From NCBI RefSeq assembly GCF_000321415.2, contig NC_019902.2:2914001-2978000 (forward strand): a stretch of 64,000 bases of DNA, given 5' to 3'. Under the pieces are notes generated by a model that did no database searches, had not been told where the DNA came from, and worked only from the letters and a program-made list of their open reading frames with translations. How positions within the stretch are numbered: position 1 is the first letter of the stretch; every line of letters begins with the position of its first letter. A program made the position numbers and the translations under genes. Shown here piece by piece: positions 12,723 to 20,854 of this stretch. The stretch comes from Thioalkalivibrio nitratireducens DSM 14787 (GTDB taxonomy: Bacteria; Pseudomonadota; Gammaproteobacteria; Ectothiorhodospirales; Ectothiorhodospiraceae).

Positions 12723-13422
12723 CGGTTCATCCCCGCGCGGGCGGGGAACGCCGGCGCATCATGTCCAGCACGCCGTAGACGTTCGGTTCATCCCCGCGCG
12801 GGTGGGCAACGCGGACCGTGCGCTGTGGCCGTCGAGTATGAGGACGGTTCATCCCCGCGCGGGCGGGGAACGCTTTGCCGGGTTAACGGCGGGGACGCTG
12901 GTTGGCGGTTCATCCCCGCGCGGGCGGGGAACGCGGCGCTCTACCCATGCGCCTGACCCGTCCGGACGGTTCATCCCCGCGCGGGCGGGGAACGCCCGCG
13001 GTTCGAGATAGCCCGAAGACTGCGTCACGGTTCATCCCCGCGCGGGCGGGGAACGCCGTTAACGTCCAGCACCCCTTCGATGTTAATGCGGTTCATCCCC
13101 GCGCGGGCGGGGAACGCGCCTGCAATCACCACTCCGTGGTTGCATTTTTCGGTTCATCCCCGCGCGGGCGGAGAACGCGGCTGATGGCGGGGCTGTTCCG
13201 GTTGGTCTGCCGGTTCATCCCCGCGCGGGCGGGGAACGCGACCTCCACCGTTGCGGTCGCACGCTGCACGACGGTTCATCCCCGCGCGGGCGGGGAACGC
13301 TTGCCACAATCACGTCTGCGCCTCCCGATATTCGGTTCATCCCCGCGCGGGCGGGGAACGCCGCACCGCCAAGACCGGCGGCGCCGCCCAGGCCGGTTCA
13401 TCCCCGCGCGGGCGGGGAACGC
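12723..13422 (-). CRISPR. Type I-E CRISPR array, 12 repeats, 11 spacers, no cas genes
   Basis: Twelve 29-bp repeats at a constant 61-bp period (starts 12723, 12784, 12845 ... 13394), each beginning CGGTTCATCCCCGCG and ending GGGGAACGC; spacers are 32 bp. The second repeat (GGTGGGC) and the eighth (GGAGAAC) carry substitutions. By analogy with the E. coli type I-E repeat (handle AUAAACCG), the transcribed strand is minus, giving a handle AUGAACCG and placing the leader at the right end. There, one spacer-length of sequence follows the last repeat and the next expected repeat (13455) is replaced by IS21-like sequence. No cas gene lies in the window. Confidence 0.97.
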
Positions 13423-13600: not shown

Positions 13601-13864
13601 TCAAGCGGTCGGTGCGGCGCGGCGTTTGCGCATGGATTCTCCTTTCAGAGTGATGCGGTAGGCGTTGTGGACCAGGCGGTCCAGGATGGCGTCGGCGAGC
13701 GTGGGATCGCCGATGGCGTCATGCCAGTGTTCGACCGGCAGTTGGCTGGTGACCAGGGTGGAGCGGCAGGGGTGGCGGTCGTCCAGCAGCTCGAGCAGAT
13801 CGCGGCGCTGGGGCGCGGTCATTGGCGCGAGGCCCCAGTCGTCGAGTAATGTGGAGCTAAACAT
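13601..13864 (-). pseudogene. IstB C-terminal fragment A (IS21 family)
   Basis: Reads LLDDWGLAPMTAPQRRDLLE ... STLVTSQLPVEHWHD ... ADAILDRLVHNAYRI, the region from the Walker B (LLDDWG) to the C-terminus of the IstB AAA+ helper. The first residues (MFSST) derive from the joint with fragment B. The N-terminal Walker A part and istA are missing. It points away from fragment B, to which it is joined head to head at the Walker B codons. Confidence 0.85.
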
Positions 13865-13874
13865 TACTCGACGA
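13839..13874. repeat. 13-bp perfect inverted repeat at the junction of two istB fragments
   Basis: TCGTCGAGTAATG (13839-13851) and CATTACTCGACGA (13862-13874) flank a 10-bp spacer. Each arm is the Walker B-coding sequence (LLDD or LLDE) of a different istB fragment, so the two genes are fused head to head at the same codons. This looks like a recombination or template-switch scar. Confidence 0.8.
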
Positions 13875-14109
13875 ACTCGGCTTCCTGCCCATGAGCCGGC
13901 AGGCCCGCTACAGCCTGTTCCAGCTGATCAACAGCCTCTACGAGTACCGCTCGGTGATCCTGACCACCAACAAGGACTTCACCGCCTGGGGCGAGTTCTT
14001 CCATGACGACAACGTCGCGGTCCCCATCATCGACCGCATCATCCATCACTCCCACATCTTCATGCTGGGAGGAGAAAGCTATCGGCTGAAGCAGAAAACA
14101 CTCAGCTGA
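13864..14109 (+). pseudogene. IstB C-terminal fragment B (IS21 family)
   Basis: Reads LLDELGFLPMSRQARYSLFQ ... TTNKDFTAWGEFFHDD ... GGESYRLKQKTLS, the second half of an IstB ATPase of a different IS21 lineage from fragment A. An ATG at 13891 opens a 72-codon frame but the Walker A half is absent. Downstream the IS21 end TGGCCATTGACA (14158-14169) abuts a cut CRISPR repeat at 14170. Closely related to the remnant at 11269. Confidence 0.85.
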
Positions 14110-14169
14110 CTATCAGGGGTGGGTCAATTTTATTGGCCAGTACCGGGTCAGAATAAATGGCCATTGACA

Positions 14170-14603
14170 CGCGGCAGCGAACCTCAGATATTCGCCGGCG
14201 GTGATGATCTGGATTTTCTGAGCTGCCTGCGCGGCAGCGAACCTGGCCCAAGCCGACGACCCCGGCTGCTACGATTTCTGAGCTGCCTGCGCGGCAGCGA
14301 ACACAACTCCGTCTCGGTATCCGTCAGCATCTGCGTTTCTGAGCTGCCTGCGCGGCAGCGAACCCGGTCCGTTTGTGAGCGTCTGCGTCGGGGCATTTCT
14401 GAGCTGCCTGCGCGGCAGCGAACTCGGCCGCCTATGACGCCGGCCTGATCTCCGATTTCTGAGCTGCCTGCGCGGCAGCGAACTGCGGGAAGCTGCTCGA
14501 TCGTTGTCACGCCTATTTCTGAGCTGCCTGCGCGGCAGCGAACGGCGGCAGTCCGGTGGTCGCGATTTTGGATGATTTCTGAGCTGCCTGCGCGGCAGCG
14601 AAC
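14170..14603 (-). CRISPR. Type I-F CRISPR array, left part: cut repeat plus 7 repeats
   Basis: 28-bp repeats starting TTTCTGAGCTGCC and ending GGCAGCGAAC, at 14215, 14275, 14336, 14396, 14456, 14516 and 14576, with 32-33-bp spacers. The leftmost unit is only the last 13 bp of a repeat (14170-14182), cut at the end of IS21 sequence. The repeat is of the I-F family; the crRNA handle (CUCAGAAA, cf. CUAAGAAA) lies on the minus strand, so this left end is leader-distal. The array continues at 17055 beyond an inserted element. Confidence 0.97.
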
Positions 14604-14697
14604 ATGGAGCCTCATATCAGGTATCACTTTAGCTGCCTGAAAAAAGTGGCACAGGGGGCTGGCGTCACGGCGCATCTGCTGGTAGCGTGTGGTGCCC

Positions 14698-15594
14698 ATG
14701 GGACAGAGCGACAGGGTGCTGCTGCGTTACCGAGGCCGCGATGTGCGTGCCGAGGATCTCGCGACGATTCGCGCGCAGATCGCGCAGGCGGCCACGGCAC
14801 AGGGAGCGGCCCGCGGTCGCAGCGCGATCGCCCGACGACTGTGTGAGGGGTGGGACTGGCGGCAGGCGAACGGGGCGCTCAAGGAATACGCCGCGCGGGA
14901 TCTGCTGCTGCGCCTGGAAGAGGCCGGGCACATCCAGTTGCCGCCGCGGCTGCAAGAGAAGAACAATCACGCGGTCCCGGATTATCGGCAACGGCCGCTG
15001 TTCGAGGAGCGGCCGCTGGCCGGGCGGGTGGATGCCTATGGGGTGCTCGAGATCCGCACGGCTGAGGGACCTGAGCGCTACCTCTGGGATTATCTGGTTC
15101 ATCACCACCATTACCTGGGGCGTCCCAAGCTAGTGGGCGCGTACCTCAAGCAATTGGTGTGGCTCGACGGGCAGGTGGTGGCCTGCCTGGGTTGGGCCAG
15201 TGCCGCCTGGAAGGTCGATTGTCGGGACCGCTGGATCGGCTGGACGCCCGAGCTGCGGCGCCAGCGTCTGGTCGGGGTGGTGAACAACGTCCGCTTTCTG
15301 ATCCTGCCGTGGGTGCGTGTAGAGCATCTGGCCTCGAAGGTGCTGGGGCAGTCGCTGCGCGGGCTTGCCGCCGCGTGGCAGGCCCGGGTGGGGCAACGCA
15401 TCGTGCTGGCGGAGACCTTCGTCGATCCGGCGCGCTTTGCCGGCACCTGCTATCGGGCGGCCAACTGGCAGTGCCTGGGCCAGACCCGGGGCCATGCCAA
15501 GCGCGGCAATGCCTACCGGGCACATGCCGTGTCCAAGGACGTCTGGGTGCGGCCGCTGACGCGCCGCTGGCGGCCGGCGCTGCTGGAACCATGA
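14698..15594 (+). CDS. DruA-family (DUF4338) protein carried by an IS66-type element
   Basis: A 298-aa protein (301 from GTG at 14689) of the DUF4338 family, whose founding named member is DruA of the Druantia anti-phage system. Visible conserved parts are WDYLVHHHHYLG (about residue 135), VVACLGWASAAWKVDCRD, the NNVRFLILPWV block, HLASKVLG and a C-terminal FAGTCYRAANWQCLGQT. Its molecular activity is not established. Here it is the first gene of a small transposable element and its TGA overlaps the transposase ATG, so the two proteins are made in step. That context argues for an accessory role in transposition or target choice rather than a stand-alone defence role; this is inference. Confidence 0.88.
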   Translation: MGQSDRVLLRYRGRDVRAEDLATIRAQIAQAATAQGAARGRSAIARRLCEGWDWRQANGALKEYAARDLLLRLEEAGHIQLPPRLQEKNNHAVPDYRQRPLFEERPLAGRVDAYGVLEIRTAEGPERYLWDYLVHHHHYLGRPKLVGAYLKQLVWLDGQVVACLGWASAAWKVDCRDRWIGWTPELRRQRLVGVVNNVRFLILPWVRVEHLASKVLGQSLRGLAAAWQARVGQRIVLAETFVDPARFAGTCYRAANWQCLGQTRGHAKRGNAYRAHAVSKDVWVRPLTRRWRPALLEP

Positions 15595-16973
15595 CCCGCG
15601 AGGAGGCCTGTGCGCTGCTCGACGGGCCGCGCGAGGTGGCCGTGGCCAAGATCCTCGAACTCGCGCACAAGGCCGAGCAGTGGGACCGGCAGTCGGCCCC
15701 CGACGCAGACCCGCTGCAACCCTCGGCGACGATCGCCTCGTTCCAGAAGCCGGCGGCGCCACGGCGCCGACGCAAGCCCGGGCGCAAGGCGGGTCATCAC
15801 GGGGCTTGCCGGCCGGTACCGCAGACCATCGACGCGCAGGTGGAACACCGGCTCGAGACCTGTCCTGACTGCGGACACCCGGTCGGGCCCGCCGTCCGCT
15901 CCCACACCCGCCTCATCGAGGATCTGGAACCGGGAACCGTCAAGACCCATGCGCACACCGTCCACGGCCACTGGTGTGGTCACTGCCGCAAGATCGTCAC
16001 GCCCACGGTCACTGCGGCGCTGCCGCGCGCGACGCTCGGCCTGAACCTCGTCATCTACAGCGCCTGGCTGCATTACCGTCTCGGCATCAGCGTGGGCAAC
16101 TTGGTCACCATTCTCCAGCAGCTGTTCGGGCTGCGCGTCAGTGCCGGCGGACTCACCCAGTCCTGGATCCGGCTCGGGGAGACCCTGGCGCCCTACGGGG
16201 TGCAGCTGGAGCAGGCCATCCGCCAGGCCGGTGTTCTGCACGCCGACGAAACCGGCTGGCGGGTCAACGGCACCACCCACTGGCTCTGGGCCTTCTGCAC
16301 CGAAGACCTGGCCTATTTCCGGATCGAACGCCGGCGCAATGCCGCGGTGGTCTTGGCCGTTCTGGGCGAAATCTTCGACGGTTTGCTGGTCTGTGACTTC
16401 TACGCCGCCTACAACGCGGTCGAGACCTGGGCCAAACAACGCTGCCTGTTCCACTTGTTCGCCGAACTGCGCCGGGTCGATCAACGCAATACCTCGATTC
16501 CCTGGCGCGACACCCGGCGCCGCATCCAACGCCTGTTCCAGGATGCGATCCGGCTGAAGCTGCGCCGCCCCGAACTGGAACCGCACGTCTACCAACGCCG
16601 CAAACGACGCCTGCACCAACGCCTCGACGAACTGATCGCCACCTCGTTCCAGGATAAAGATGCCATGCGCTTGGTCAAACGCCTGGGCAACTTCCGCGGC
16701 GAACTGCTGACCTTCCTGGATCATCAGGACCTGCCGCCCACCAATAACCGCGGCGAGCAAGAGATGCGCACGCCCGTGCTCACCCGCAAGGTCTGCCAGC
16801 AGAACCGCTCCGAAGCGGGTGCCGAAACGCACGCCCTGCTGCTGTCCCTGTTCCGCACCGGCGAACTGCAAGGACACGAGCCGCTTGCCTTCGTGCGCCG
16901 TCTGACCGAGGCTGCCATCGCTGGGAAACCCCTCGAACTCGTCCGGCCCGCACCGGCCGCCCAGGCCGCCTGA
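15591..16973 (+). CDS. IS66-family transposase (TnpC type)
   Basis: 460 aa. The N-terminal basic linker (RRRRKPGRKAGHH) is followed by a zinc-finger (CPDCGHP ... CGHCRK, residues 86-127) and the DDE catalytic domain: HADETGW (D), LLVCDFYAAYN (D) and PPTNNRGEQEMR (E). It moves the element at 14621-17030 by cut-and-paste with 8-bp target duplication. The start ATG sits inside the druA-like stop (ATGA). The canonical IS66 helpers TnpA and TnpB are absent. The gene is intact and the element ends are sharp, so it may be active. Confidence 0.93.
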   Translation: MTREEACALLDGPREVAVAKILELAHKAEQWDRQSAPDADPLQPSATIASFQKPAAPRRRRKPGRKAGHHGACRPVPQTIDAQVEHRLETCPDCGHPVGPAVRSHTRLIEDLEPGTVKTHAHTVHGHWCGHCRKIVTPTVTAALPRATLGLNLVIYSAWLHYRLGISVGNLVTILQQLFGLRVSAGGLTQSWIRLGETLAPYGVQLEQAIRQAGVLHADETGWRVNGTTHWLWAFCTEDLAYFRIERRRNAAVVLAVLGEIFDGLLVCDFYAAYNAVETWAKQRCLFHLFAELRRVDQRNTSIPWRDTRRRIQRLFQDAIRLKLRRPELEPHVYQRRKRRLHQRLDELIATSFQDKDAMRLVKRLGNFRGELLTFLDHQDLPPTNNRGEQEMRTPVLTRKVCQQNRSEAGAETHALLLSLFRTGELQGHEPLAFVRRLTEAAIAGKPLELVRPAPAAQAA

Positions 16974-17054
16974 GACACCCCACCCCTCGGCGCATCCGGC
17001 GCCAACCGTTTCAGGCAGCTAAAGTCATACCATATCAGTCATCACCCCTCCGTA

Positions 17055-18044
17055 TTTCTGAGCTGCCTGCGCGGCAGCGAACGCTGGCGGGAACCTCATG
17101 AGCATGGCTGGCGATTTCTGAGCTGCCTGCGCGGCAGCGAACCAGGAATCGACGTCGAGGGATGCGCTGAACTCCTTTCTGAGCTGCCTGCGCGGCAGCG
17201 AACGGCGGGGTGTAACTCACTCCGGTTTTTCTCCCTTTCTGAGCTGCCTGCGCGGCAGCGAACGAAATCCGGGGCTTGGGATGGCTGGGGGACCATTTCT
17301 GAGCTGCCTGCGCGGCAGCGAACCGGGTAGGCGCGGTCACCCGAGCTACGCCGCATTTCTGAGCTGCCTGCGCGGCAGCGAACGGGCTCGGTCAGGAGCG
17401 CCAGCCTTGCGTTTATTTCTGAGCTGCCTGCGCGGCAGCGAACGAAGGCTGCGACACCGACCGCTGGGTGCTTAGTTTCTGAGCTGCCTGCGCGGCAGCG
17501 AACCTGCTGCGCGCGATCGAGACTGACCTTGCGAGTTTCTGAGCTGCCTGCGCGGCAGCGAACCGTCAGACCGACGCGGCGCGTGAGGCGCGCAATTTCT
17601 GAGCTGCCTGCGCGGCAGCGAACTCCACGGCGGTATTGAACTCCTCCATGCTGGATTTCTGAGCTGCCTGCGCGGCAGCGAACAGTCCCCGAACCGCGTC
17701 AGGAGACTAGTCACGTTTCTGAGCTGCCTGCGCGGCAGCGAACGCGCGGCCGCGGCCGGAGATCCGCAACCAGGATTTCTGAGCTGCCTGCGCGGCAGCG
17801 AACATCTCAAAGCCTGAATTGGCAGATTGCATCATTTTCTGAGCTGCCTGCGCGGCAGCGAACGGTGCGGGATGCGGGGTTGCCGTCTTTGTCGATTTCT
17901 GAGCTGCCTGCGCGGCAGCGAACTCGATTTGCATGCCTGCGGTGACTGGCGGGATTTTTCTGAGCTGCCTACGCGGCAGCGAACGGGGCGATCAGGTCGG
18001 GGGGTCGAGGGATCGATTTCTGAGCTGCCTGCGCGGCAGCGAAC
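17055..18044 (-). CRISPR. Type I-F CRISPR array, right part: 17 repeats
   Basis: Seventeen 28-bp repeats with starts from 17055 to 18017 at a 60-61-bp period, identical to those at 14215-14603 except for one G-to-A change in the repeat at 17957. Together the two parts hold 24 full repeats and 24 spacers, one of them split by the element. Transcription is expected leftward, with the leader at the right. Only 37 bp (18045-18081) separate the last repeat from IS66-like sequence; there is no AT-rich leader and no cas gene. Confidence 0.97.
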
Positions 18045-18107
18045 GCTGTGTATGCGTTCACTCCCCCAGGCTTGAGTGCTGGTATTACAACCGCATGCGG
18101 CGAAAGG

Positions 18108-19658
18108 TCATGGTGCCGGGGCGGGTTCAGGCAGAACGGGGGCCGGCTCGCCTTTGCGCCGCTGCTGGACCACCTGAGCCAGGTAGGGCCAGGGCGAGAC
18201 CCCGCGCTTGCGGCAGGTTTCGATCACGCTGACGAGGAGCGCGAAGGCCAAAGAACCCTGCTCGGTCCGGGTGCCCTGGCTGATGCGACGGCTGATCACC
18301 CAGTGCCGCAAGGCCTGTTCGGCCCAATTGTTCGTGATGGGCAACCGCGGAAACTCCAGAACGGCCCAGATCGCCTCCCAGTCATGGGTGAACTCGCGCG
18401 CCAGTTGCCGCGTCTTTTCGTGCGCACAGTCCCAGTGATCCACGCATAGGTCGTTGAAGGCGTCGAGCTTGCCGCGGTTTTTCTGGTACAGATCGGCCGG
18501 AGGCTGTGGTCCTTCCCGGGCCTGGTAGACTTGCTGGAGCAGGTCCTCGAACAGGGCCAGGGTGGCGGCACCAAACGGTCGCGCCAGTGGGTCGAGGCTC
18601 TGGTCCAGCCCATGGGCCTTGCGGATGAGATGCGCCAGGCAGCGCAAGCGGCGATCGTAATCGCGATAGGCCCAGAAGCCATCGCTCATCAACCAGCCAA
18701 CGAACGCTTCGCCCAGGATCTTGTGCAGCATCCTGCGGGAACGCCTGCCGATGGCAAACAGGGTGGCGGTGGTGCAGGTAAAGACCCACAGCCACAAGAG
18801 CTGGTTTCCCTCTTTCCAGCCGGTTTCGTCGACATGCAGCAGTTCGGCCTCGCGAATCAACGGCACGATATCGCGCTCGATCACCGGCGCGACCGCGCGA
18901 CCGGCTTCGTGCAGGCATTGGTGGATCGCCGCGATGCTCAGGGATACGCCCAGCCAATCGGCCAGAAACTCCTGGACACCCCGGCGCGAAACGCGCTGGC
19001 GCAGCGACAAGGCGCAGATCAGCGCCACCAGCATCGGACCGGCCAGGTGCCATTCGGTCAGTTCGACCTGCCAATCCGTATTCTCTGCACAGCGTCCCGG
19101 TTCCGCATGCGTCCAATGGCCGCAGGAACATTGCCGTTGCAGATAGACGTGCTTGGTGTGACGGACTTCAAGGCCTGGGGAACCCGAAGTGGGGGCGACC
19201 ACATCGAGTGCATAGCGACCATTGTAGCCCTTGGTCGGAGCATCCGCGGGAAAGGGCGTGCCGCAGCATCGGCAGCGATCGGGGCTGTGCAGGATCTCCT
19301 CCTGCACCGGCAACGTGACCAGACGGCCGCAACCGGGTGCGCCGGGGCGCTTGCCGGGTTTGCCGGCGGGCGCCTTGTTCTTGTCGGAGGCGGGCGTGGT
19401 CGCCGCAGATGACGGGGGTTCTGACGCGGGCGCCGTCGGATCTTCGGTTGGGTCCTCCGTCTCTGCTGCGCTGGCGGCTTCCCAAGGGGGCTGGCTGCTC
19501 GATGGCCGGGAACTGTTGGCCGGGTTTTGCCCCAGGCGATCATGCGCCTCTTTCAAATCCACCAGCAGATTCACCGCAAGCACGCGCAGCGCGGCTTCGC
19601 TCAGGGCCGCGATGAACGCCTCGTCGATCTGCCGAAGATCGTGTGGGCTCAGGCGCAT
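18108..19658 (-). CDS. IS66-family transposase
   Basis: 516 aa with a helical N-terminus (LLVDLKEAHDRLGQN, a possible leucine-zipper), a Ser/Pro/Ala-rich linker, a basic GKPGKRPGAPG stretch, a zinc-binding CRCCGTPFP and CSCGHW, and the DDE triad in LHVDETGWKEG, LMSDGFWAYRD and PITNNWAEQALR. The full frame is open. It is only distantly like the transposase at 15591. The gene ends 64 bp right of the last CRISPR repeat. A methylase pseudogene precedes it at 19674-20341. Confidence 0.92.
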   Translation of the reverse strand: MRLSPHDLRQIDEAFIAALSEAALRVLAVNLLVDLKEAHDRLGQNPANSSRPSSSQPPWEAASAAETEDPTEDPTAPASEPPSSAATTPASDKNKAPAGKPGKRPGAPGCGRLVTLPVQEEILHSPDRCRCCGTPFPADAPTKGYNGRYALDVVAPTSGSPGLEVRHTKHVYLQRQCSCGHWTHAEPGRCAENTDWQVELTEWHLAGPMLVALICALSLRQRVSRRGVQEFLADWLGVSLSIAAIHQCLHEAGRAVAPVIERDIVPLIREAELLHVDETGWKEGNQLLWLWVFTCTTATLFAIGRRSRRMLHKILGEAFVGWLMSDGFWAYRDYDRRLRCLAHLIRKAHGLDQSLDPLARPFGAATLALFEDLLQQVYQAREGPQPPADLYQKNRGKLDAFNDLCVDHWDCAHEKTRQLAREFTHDWEAIWAVLEFPRLPITNNWAEQALRHWVISRRISQGTRTEQGSLAFALLVSVIETCRKRGVSPWPYLAQVVQQRRKGEPAPVLPEPAPAP

Positions 19659-19673
19659 CCTCCGCGACCCACC

Positions 19674-20341
19674 TCAATCCTCGGCCTCAACCGCCATCAG
19701 GGCCGAGAGCACCGCCAGGCGCTCCGCCGCGGGCATGGCCCGGTAGCGCTCGCCCCAGCTCGCGGCCTTGCGCTTGATCCGTTGCCGGTCGGTGAAGTTC
19801 TTGCCCGCATAGCGCGGCCAATGCACCCGATCGGGCGTGAAGTTGAACCAGAGTTTCTCGGTGCGGCACCCGACCCTGGATACATCACCTGCACTTCCAG
19901 GCTCCGCCAACCCGTCAGATGCTCGTCGTACAGCGCCGAGGGGTAGCCCGACAGGATGACCGAACAGGGGAGCGACTGGAGCAGCGCAAGCAGCTCGAGA
20001 TGGTCGGCCTCCTGGTATTCAAATCGATAGCGCCGCCGCGAGGTGCGGGTGGCATGCAGATACGGCGGATCACTGTAGACCAATTCCCGGCCCTGGAAAT
20101 CGAACCCGGCCAGAAACGCATGCGCGCAGGCGTTCACCTTCTCGATCGGATAGGGGCCCGCAAACTCCCGCAGTGCTTGCGGGTCCAGGTCGATGCCAAT
20201 ATTGCGCAACGCCGCCGGCTTGCGCTGCATGATCGCCCCACCACCGAGATGGGTTTCGATGTAGGTGTCGTGCGGCGGCATCAAGGCAATGATCGATTGG
20301 CACAACCCGACCGTCGCCTTCGAACCGAAATAGCCGCCCAT
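19674..20341 (-). pseudogene. DNA adenine methylase (Dam-like), frameshifted
   Basis: The N-terminal two thirds (MGGYFGSKATVGLCQ ... THLGGGAIM ... IGIDLD ... YSDPPYLHATR) contain the GGG loop for S-adenosylmethionine and the DPPY catalytic motif of N6-adenine methyltransferases. Near 19875-19880, after SLEVQVM, the frame shifts; the proper C-terminus (CRTEKLWFNFTPDRVHW ... FTDRQRIKRKAASWGERY) continues in another frame to a stop at 19674. Dam-like genes are known passengers of IS66-type elements, where methylation may tune transposition. The single shift probably inactivates it, unless it is a sequencing error. Confidence 0.85.
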
Positions 20342-20404
20342 CGCACGCCTCCCATCCCCGTGATCATGGAGACCACCATAGCCGCGACGCGCTATACCGT
20401 CAAG

Positions 20405-20854
20405 TCATCGCAGCTTTCTCCAGGGGGGGCTGAACGGATACCTGGAAACCAACCTTGATTCCGTCAAGTCGTCAACGGCATAAACCCGAGGAACGAGAGG
20501 TCGCCCACCTCCATCTGCTAGTTGAGTCGCTTGGCCTGCCATGCCGCCTTGTTGGAATAGGACTGCGGGCCTGAGTCCCTGTTCAAGGAACAAAGGGATC
20601 TCTATCGAAATGCTTCCAACTATCGTGAGGCCTTCCGGATTCGCCTCCCGAAGCCCAGTCCGTATCGCAATGCCGAATGCATCGTTCGAAACGGGGACAG
20701 ACACGGTCCGGGATTCTTGACCAAATAAGTTAGAAACGGTCGGGCGTTCTGGATCCGCTGTGTCCCCCTCGCCGTAGGCGCCTTGGGCAAACAGTGCGGC
20801 AAACACGAACAAGCCGACAACCAGAACAATCCCTCGAGAGGAGAGCAAGGTCAT
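20405..20854 (-). CDS. Secreted hypothetical protein, possibly truncated
   Basis: 149 aa. The first 28 residues (SSRGIVLVVGLFVFAALFAQ, ending GAYG) form a good signal peptide. The remainder (VSNLFGQESRTVSVPVSND ... TIVGSISIEIPLFLE ...) resembles no family that I recognise; it could be an outer-membrane or periplasmic protein. The stop falls within 10 bp of the putative right end of the IS66-like element, so the C-terminus may have been cut and replaced. Confidence 0.5.
   Translation of the reverse strand: MTLLSSRGIVLVVGLFVFAALFAQGAYGEGDTADPERPTVSNLFGQESRTVSVPVSNDAFGIAIRTGLREANPEGLTIVGSISIEIPLFLEQGLRPAVLFQQGGMAGQATQLADGGGRPLVPRVYAVDDLTESRLVSRYPFSPPWRKLR

Follow-up and report, generated by a model that had tools for sequence, protein, structure and literature searches.

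An IS66-type insertion sequence with a putative Mom-like DruA (DUF4338) protein, lodged in a CRISPR spacer of Thioalkalivibrio nitratireducens

Introduction

Proteins of the DUF4338/DruA type are known mainly as components of Druantia defence, and Mom of phage Mu is an adenine-modifying enzyme of the GNAT class. The terminal inverted repeats (TIRs) of the IS66 family of insertion sequences (ISs) start with GTAA; classic members have TnpA and TnpB, and members with tnpC only make up the ISBst12 group. The present analysis concerns an IS66-type element that carries a druA gene and interrupts a CRISPR spacer in a 64,000-nucleotide stretch of Thioalkalivibrio nitratireducens DSM 14787 (contig NC_019902.2, positions 2,914,001 to 2,978,000 of the forward strand), which is referred to as the window; the DruA protein of this element is best read as a relative of Mu Mom.

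In the available part of PMC12888890, accessory genes in IS66-type elements are already known in kind and GTAA is given as the TIR start of an IS66 member. DUF4338 is described as a GNAT domain in the accessible text of PMC10853773, and is also treated in the corresponding portion of PMC7251935. The pairing of DruA with transposases is not described in the accessible portions of PMC8565338, PMC13316683, and PMC12774648, and no open-access paper on DUF4338 with IS66 was found. The recurrent pairing with six kinds of transposase (counting two IS4 subgroups), the relation to Mom with its serine, and the parallel methyltransferase, all considered below, were likewise not found in searches of an open-access library, a scope that does not extend to subscription journals or ISfinder.

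Structure and copies of the element

The anatomy of the element and its copies, as well as the recurrent pairing and fusion of DruA with transposases, were observed directly. The insertion sequence proper is 2410 bp long (14621-17030); the limits of 14613-17038 given in a first-pass annotation of the window take in both copies of the target duplication. Its features, in window coordinates, are as follows.

14613-14620, no strand: target duplication, left copy, CATATCAG, from the sequence
14621-17030, plus strand: IS66-type insertion sequence with druA and tnpC, 2410 bp, from the TIRs, the target duplication, and four copies in the genome
14621-14642, plus strand: left TIR, 22 bp
14689-15594, plus strand: druA (DUF4338, PF14236), 301 amino acids, with an N-terminal helical part, perhaps helix-turn-helix (HTH)-like, and a predicted Mom-like GNAT domain
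15591-16973, plus strand: tnpC, IS66 DDE transposase, 460 amino acids, overlapping druA by ATGA
17009-17030, minus strand: right TIR, 22 bp, 21/22 to the left one
17031-17038, no strand: target duplication, right copy, CATATCAG, from the sequence

The two copies of the duplication match in 8 of 8 positions, and the TIRs, GTATCACTTTAGCTGCCTGAAA on the left and GTATGACTTTAGCTGCCTGAAA on the right (other strand), in 21 of 22, with one base different. The first-pass annotation had reported 22-bp TIRs, a perfect 8-bp duplication, and a split spacer of 33 bp once closed, all of which are borne out, the spacer halves (14604-14620 and 17039-17054) adding up to 33 nucleotides (nt). With up to three mismatches allowed, the TIR pattern occurs at only two sites in the 64 kb, both being the ends of the element, and two sites were seen in 0 of 100 shuffles. 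The TIR starts with GTAT, as does that of IS66b, a neighboring element described below.

The two genes, druA (GTG start) and tnpC, overlap by the tetranucleotide ATGA and are probably translationally coupled. The druA product scores 111 bits against PF14236 (cut-off 27), and TnpC scores 139 bits against PF03050 (cut-off 23.1) and 236 bits against NF033517 (cut-off 180), which places it in the IS66 family; the description of the cargo as a DUF4338 protein overlapping a TnpC-type transposase is therefore correct. The reported lack of TnpA and TnpB also holds, in that no further open reading frame (ORF) of the element was assigned, no TnpA profile search having been made, and that TnpB (PF05717) was matched in this genome only at another IS66 locus (2983751-2984046). 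The element is an IS66-type variant and not a classic IS66 member, no TnpA or TnpB genes being assigned. No druBCDE genes accompany druA, the element consisting of druA and tnpC only, within a CRISPR array; no search for dru genes was made in the remainder of the window.

Four copies of the element occur in the genome (one contig, 4.0 Mb), and all of them contain druA, which is broken in two. The target duplications have the 8-bp length of the IS66 family in every copy; three are exact (CATATCAG, GGGACTTG, and TCACCGAC) and the fourth has one mismatch (GAGCGCAT/GAACGCAT, 7/8). Both genes are open in the window copy and in copy L003. Between these two, druA has 8 synonymous and 5 non-synonymous changes (ratio of non-synonymous to synonymous rates, dN/dS, ∼0.22; one-sided binomial P = 0.008) and tnpC has 23 and 16, respectively (dN/dS ∼0.24; P = 1e-5). 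Like the transposase gene, druA is thus conserved and shows purifying selection, although 13 changes are few. That the DUF4338 gene is a one-off passenger absent from other copies, which the first-pass annotation had named as an outcome that would overturn its view, is ruled out by these copies and by the survey of other loci described below.

PF14236 has 18 matches in this genome, four in this element, eight in a second IS type, five in a third type, and one in a fragment. The second type has DruA fused to an IS4/Tn5 transposase; in the one copy that was scanned, a single open frame of 784 codons covers both, with scores of 79.6 bits for PF14236 and 326.7 bits for NF033590 (cut-off 160). Its eight copies have common ends, not all being open throughout, and are flanked by exact 8-bp duplications in six of eight cases, by a 7/8 match in one, and by none in one. 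The third type has an ISKra4 transposase (NF033572, 288.9 bits, cut-off 205) behind DruA, and this transposase is full length in one copy; the five matches represent four copies, three of which are incomplete or broken. The 18th match, the fragment, seems by eye to read into an IS4-like frame.

Probable relationship of DruA to Mu Mom

An AlphaFold2 model based on 57 aligned proteins (predicted local distance difference test, pLDDT, 91.4; predicted template modeling score, pTM, 0.83) comprises a helical part at the N terminus together with an alpha/beta domain. In a Foldseek search of the PDB, Mu Mom (8bv8_B) ranks first of 853 matches (E = 1.2e-7; query-based template modeling (TM) score, TMq, 0.44) and is the closest fold in this ranking, the first GNAT other than Mom having E = 7e-6; in a viral structure library, Mom or Mom-like proteins are found at ranks 4 and 6. 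Searches with the sequence of DruA gave no useful match to the PDB (best E 0.61). The Pfam family Mom (PF25680) matches 41 of the 57 relatives at E<=1 (best 8.8e-6), and the generic acetyltransferase GNAT family matches one. Profile-profile comparison of DruA with 11 Mom proteins gave a probability of 97.0 and E = 1.2e-10, as compared with P = 0.19 for eight ordinary GNATs of the same genome; the match of a single Mom sequence to the DruA profile is weak (P = 0.027) and becomes strong only with the 11 Mom proteins.

Residue 1 aside, the sole difference between the wild type and the chain of an inactive Mom mutant, titled S124A, is in the second of the two serines of NSES. Ser124 of Mom (8bv8) aligns with Ser216 of DruA, a position that is serine in 57/57 proteins. 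Other residues found in 57/57 are His141, Arg179, Arg202, Glu242, Arg256, Ala257, Asn259, Trp260, and Gly264. Structure prediction and profile comparison thus support the fold, the homology to Mom, and the conserved serine, and the most suitable reading of "DruA" is that of a Mu Mom relative.

DruA beside transposases in other genomes

A collection of species genomes was scanned with the window protein, a procedure that favors relatives of that protein, and the best 80 loci of 91 relatives were kept. These come mostly from metagenome-assembled genomes of Pseudomonadota, Acidobacteriota, Verrucomicrobiota, Planctomycetota, and other phyla. Twenty partner ORFs were scanned with NCBIfam, and six transposase profiles were built from those that could be named and widened with hits of the same loci; a pair was counted when DruA scored at least 100 bits and the transposase at least 40 bits, the two forming a fusion or lying no more than 250 bp apart on the same strand. 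Some of the 20 scanned ORFs are not transposases and include a sulfatase, a transporter, and several without a match. DruA is fused or adjacent to a transposase in 57 of the 80 loci. There are 27 IS66 pairs (23 with DruA first, 3 with TnpC first, and 1 TnpC-DruA fusion), 18 IS4/Tn5-like pairs (11 fused), 6 pairs with a second IS4 group (5 fused), 4 with ISKra4, and 1 each with IS701 and ISAs1 (both fused). The juxtaposition with IS66-type transposases, for which the first-pass annotation had suggested looking genome-wide, recurs in 27 of the 80 related loci.

PF14236 matches are present in 16 of 299 genomes of the same phylum and in 17 of 369 of the same class, the genome under study being counted in both. 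A less biased set consists of 39 regions (19 + 20) around the PF14236 matches of other genomes, from which additional copies in the same genome and a number of weak hits were left out. Of these regions, 25 have IS-type DruA (profile score at least 100 bits), in 14 cases with a transposase partner by the profiles described above (in L166 at only 39 bits). The other 11 IS-type regions comprise four at contig ends (L164, L168, L224, and L232), four fragments (L172, L173, L176, and L234), and three without a partner by these profiles (L167, L222, and L223), a neighbor in L223 scoring below the cut-off for DDE_Tnp_1. A long DruA type of about 400 amino acids accounts for 7 of the 39 regions, very long Druantia-type or fused proteins for 4, and fragments for 3. 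PF14236 thus lumps a transposon branch with a defence-like one. DruA was found in 2 of 72,556 plasmid records and had no match in phage records at E<=1e-3. An exact 8-bp duplication together with a TIR of at least 12/16 was found in only 5 of 51 foreign modules (1 of 400 mixed flanks in the control); most foreign modules are therefore not delimited.

The exchange of partners was followed on a tree of 73 GNAT domains, made by a quick method, unrooted, and supported by the Shimodaira-Hasegawa-like approximate likelihood ratio test (SH-aLRT) only, in which 26 of 69 inner branches are open; the partner label of L144 is taken from its near-identity to L142 and not from a scan. The label changes 10 times, the least possible number being 6 and the shuffled mean 37.7, and 0 of 200 shuffles are as low. 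A starred branch (97) places the six TnpC-first IS66 elements among those of IS4/Tn5 type, and two changes of the IS66 label are the minimum that the starred branches of the unrooted tree require; on the simplest reading, IS66 and DruA would have come together on two or more occasions, with either gene in front. DruA distances correlate with TnpC distances within the IS66 pairs (r = 0.92, n = 23, 0/2000 permutations). In the seven ISAs1 fusions listed and in the IS701 fusion, the N-terminal ∼100 residues are gone and the GNAT domain is kept, 17 other listed proteins being full length.

The presence of DruA as an integral part of all four copies, its several transposase partners, and the purifying selection on it mean that proteins of the DruA type have a home in transposons in addition to their place in defence. 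The suggestion of the first-pass annotation that they may be transposition or targeting factors is in part consistent with this, because DruA is integral to the element (4/4 copies, multiple transposase families, fusions, and purifying selection), but the targeting role finds no such backing.

A methyltransferase-like gene in a neighboring IS66-type element

A second element in the window offers a parallel to druA.

18050-20441, minus strand: second IS66-type element (IS66b), no DruA, five copies in the genome; tnpC at 18108-19658; no target duplication at this copy
19700-20404, minus strand: stop-to-stop ORF of IS66b, D12-class N6-adenine methyltransferase-like (PF02086, 18.9 bits; ETHLGGGA and SDPPY by eye)

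The methyltransferase-like ORF lies upstream of tnpC. A search with its protein gave matches in 17 of 369 genomes. Among 30 methyltransferase-like loci, nine have an IS66 match (four of them in the genome under study, two being from one place), one (L311) has an IS4/Tn5 match, and 20 have none; in two of these 20 (L327 and L334) a DDE_5 transposase stands beside the methyltransferase-like gene. The 10 IS66 transposase genes of the genome under study are distributed so that 4 are beside DruA, 5 beside the methyltransferase-like gene, and 1 beside TnpB. Two unrelated adenine-modification-like enzymes thus share one slot beside overlapping sets of transposases, and this shared slot is the strongest argument, albeit an indirect one, that DNA may be the substrate of DruA. 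The methyltransferase-like match shifts frame at about residue 143 in several relatives and in copies of the same genome.

DruA and Druantia

Against the PADLOC DruA model, the window protein gives E = 0.018 (12.2 bits), as compared with scores between 268 and 592 bits for the four proteins scanned of the long or very long kind (L159, L160, L169, and L171). Membership in Druantia type I is ruled out by this value and by the lack of any other Druantia gene in the element. The DruA-family label of the first-pass annotation is therefore sound in terms of PF14236 but misleading in its Druantia sense, and the relation to Mom goes beyond that earlier reading.

Long DruA proteins resemble the IS-type over part of the GNAT domain (E = 1.7e-10), the similarity being as great as that of the IS-type to Mom; between long DruA and Mom none was detectable (P = 0.1, with only seven sequences). 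Long DruA has Gly at the position of the Mom serine in 7/7 sequences, and the aligned long proteins are without the YRAANW stretch, where Druantia-type L171 has RAADL, although the alignment is uncertain at such distance. The IS-type thus resembles both Mom and long DruA, with no similarity detected between those two, a pattern that fits a later recruitment to defence. In 5 of the 7 long-type regions, DruA adjoins NurA-like and HerA-like genes (named in L159 and identified by similarity in the others); the L159 protein scores 353 bits with PADLOC DruA. In L159, L215, L217, L218, and L219, a long DruA (∼400 amino acids) heads a conserved operon in which genes for a NurA-like protein and a HerA-like ATPase come next; this is possibly an undescribed defence system. 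In L160 (2625-10742), TnsB, TnsC, TniQ, DruA, an unknown gene, and an AAA gene are tightly packed on one strand, placing a long DruA right behind a Tn7-like operon.

Proposed mechanism and alternative explanations

The explanation proposed here, to which we give about an even chance, is that the element is an IS66-type insertion sequence combining TnpC with a Mom-like acyltransferase that modifies DNA and works with the transposase, and that it was inserted into the spacer by ordinary transposition. TnpC would cut and join the ends with an 8-bp stagger, and ordinary, 8-bp-duplicating transposition would have put the element into the CRISPR spacer. The GNAT-fold DruA would place an acyl-type group on DNA bases, most probably at N6 of adenine by analogy with Mom, and would act in cis, being brought to DNA by its own N terminus or by the DNA-binding part of a fused transposase. 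A mark on or near the element may tune the activity of its ends or promoter, as Dam methylation does for IS10 and IS50; alternatively, it may shield the element DNA from host nucleases, as Mom does for Mu. In this scheme, which has strong evidence at the sequence level, we infer the catalysis by DruA, its target base, and the position and purpose of the mark.

A number of observations weigh against this proposal. In copy L002, which is recent, druA has two 1-bp deletions that produce a double frameshift and tnpC is open, although both deletions sit in homopolymer runs and may be sequencing errors; in copy L004 both genes have decayed. By itself, the window protein reaches 14.1 bits against PF25680, under the cut-off of 27.1, and it is therefore not filed as a member of the Mom family. 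Some ordinary GNATs exceed Mom in TM-score per target, the position of the invariant Asp139 of Mom is Asp in 33/57 and Glu in 20/57 DruA proteins, the acyl-CoA and DNA contacts of Mom could not be mapped onto DruA, and GNATs also acylate proteins and small molecules. The HTH-like character of the N terminus is suggested by helices in the model and by weak Pfam hits in 2-3 of 57 proteins. The IS66b ORF is below the PF02086 cut-off of 22 bits, as is its relative in L334 (19.3 bits), although those in L309 (22.6), L310 (23.2), and L311 (29.5) are over it. By the profiles used, 23 of the 80 loci are without a partner, 12 of them being <1 kb from a contig end, 10 having no such partner, and 1 having no DruA profile match; two of the 23 (L123 and L142) adjoin an ORF with DDE_Tnp_1_assoc over the cut-off. 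Finally, DruA is found in only 1 of 30 IS66 control loci, most IS66 elements doing without it.

An explanation that we regard as unlikely is that DruA acylates a protein, either the transposase or a host factor, and thereby regulates transposition. The GNAT fold, the presence of protein acetyltransferases among the weaker structure matches, and the direct fusions of DruA to transposases would all suit such an activity; however, the sequence profiles match Mom and hardly match ordinary GNATs, and the accessory gene found in the parallel position looks like one for an adenine DNA methyltransferase. It is improbable that DruA is a non-enzymatic transposition factor, a substitute for TnpA/TnpB that binds the ends or the target and keeps the GNAT fold as a scaffold. 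The lack of TnpB and of an ORF for TnpA in the element agrees with this idea, as do the helical N terminus of the model and the fusion to transposases, but the invariance of the Mom serine, Arg256, Ala257, Asn259, and Trp260 in 57/57 proteins is more than a scaffold seems to need, and it is the N-terminal part, and not the GNAT domain, that the examined ISAs1 and IS701 fusions lose. The remaining view, that DruA is a passenger acting against restriction or nucleases, like mom in Mu, with no part in transposition, is similarly improbable, since in-frame fusions link it to IS4, IS701, ISAs1, and IS66 type transposases and it is fused or directly adjacent to several transposase families in the 57 paired loci; it would nevertheless be in keeping with the protection of phage DNA that is ascribed to Mom-family enzymes in the available part of PMC7824862, and with the passenger genes of IS66 elements known from that of PMC12888890.

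The proposal of a DNA-modifying DruA that works with the transposase can be extended, tentatively and with chances that fall short of even, to the view that base hypermodification is a recurrent and exchangeable part of insertion sequences, supplied by a Mom-like or methyltransferase gene to at least six kinds of transposase, that it acts on the DNA of the element itself and controls or protects transposition, and that DruA of Druantia is a branch of this transposon enzyme from which the Mom active site was lost. The occurrence of DruA relatives with several unrelated transposases suggests that chemical marking of DNA is a part of the life of such elements. If DruA is a Mom-type DNA modifier with a large transposon home, the function of DruA, the working of IS66 elements without TnpA/TnpB, and transposon-encoded epigenetic marks would become testable together, and DUF4338 matches next to a transposase would have to be left out of counts of defence genes.

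Insertion into CRISPR arrays

The array that holds the element is as follows.

14215-18044, plus strand: type I-F-like array interrupted by the element; its 24 repeats have 28 nt each, 23 being exact and one having a single mismatch

Its 22 unsplit spacers are of 32 nt in 19 cases and 33 nt in 3. By its sequence, the repeat is presumably of type I-F; a Csy4/Cas6f gene (207 bits) is present at G000:C1:2524022-2524570, ∼404 kb from the array. IS66b starts 5 nt after the last repeat. At the left end (14165-14215), a truncated repeat abuts remnants that by eye resemble IS21 istB (13601-14109), so that the array appears to be bounded or broken by three mobile elements. A separate type I-E-like array (12 repeats, period 61) lies just upstream, at 12723-13422.

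Elsewhere in the genome, an IS66b copy (L035:1296-3684) is inserted inside a repeat of a second CRISPR-like array (period ∼70 nt) with a perfect 8-bp duplication, GATGAAGA. An array with 13 repeat starts and a period of ∼70 nt is seen at L041:33-1176 (1.445 Mb), a DruA-IS4 copy lying ∼270 bp past its last repeat. The IS66 transposase loci of this genome are in or at arrays in 3 of 10 cases, with or without DruA, and since 2 of 5 copies of the DruA-free IS66b are among them, DruA is not required for insertion into arrays. It is possible that IS66-type elements lean toward arrays, or that arrays tolerate insertions. No array lies within 1.5 kb of the other three copies of the DruA-IS66 element. 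In other records, CRISPR-like arrays are present in 2 of 119 fetched DruA regions (not all IS-type; 732 kb), which is not distinguishable from 0 of 60 control transposase loci (204 kb; 4 hold DruA). At L097 (2632-3025), a DruA-IS4 element ends ∼40 bp before a 5-repeat array, and at L167 (2333-3377) a 5'-truncated DruA starts right where an 8-repeat I-E-like array stops.

The notion that the element prefers CRISPR arrays and that DruA is its targeting factor, to which the insertion in the window, the array edges at L097 and L167, and the DruA-IS4 copy near an array lend some color, is very improbable in view of the array-free surroundings of the other copies, the behavior of IS66b, and the lack of a distinguishable enrichment over the 60 control loci; the suggestion of the first-pass annotation that DruA might act in targeting is thus unsupported.

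Comparison with known systems

The DruA of Druantia type I belongs to the same Pfam family, PF14236, as that of the window element, and the long type has partial profile similarity to it in the GNAT domain, but the window element has no other Druantia genes, and the long type has Gly for the serine and is without YRAANW. Insertion sequences with a D12-type adenine methyltransferase-like gene, such as IS66b and its relatives, are alike in having an accessory adenine-modification-like gene before tnpC and an overlapping set of transposases, but the fold of that enzyme is unrelated to that of the Mom-like DruA. With Mu Mom (PF25680; PDB 8bv8, "Methylcarbamoylase mom"), the window DruA shares a predicted GNAT fold, profile homology, and an aligned essential serine, and its HY, F(A/V)D, and Y(Q/R)A(S/A)N(F/W) stretches also align; it differs in having ∼18% identity, greater length with an extra N-terminal part, and a location in simple insertion sequences. 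In relation to the IS66 family, including the "tIS66" elements with passenger genes such as ISPa75-fosZ in the available part of PMC12888890, the element is alike in its TnpC, which scores over the cut-offs, in its TIRs, and in its 8-bp duplication, but it is without TnpB and without sign of TnpA and has a Mom-like GNAT gene upstream of and overlapping tnpC, and its accessory gene is not one-off cargo but recurs across transposase families.

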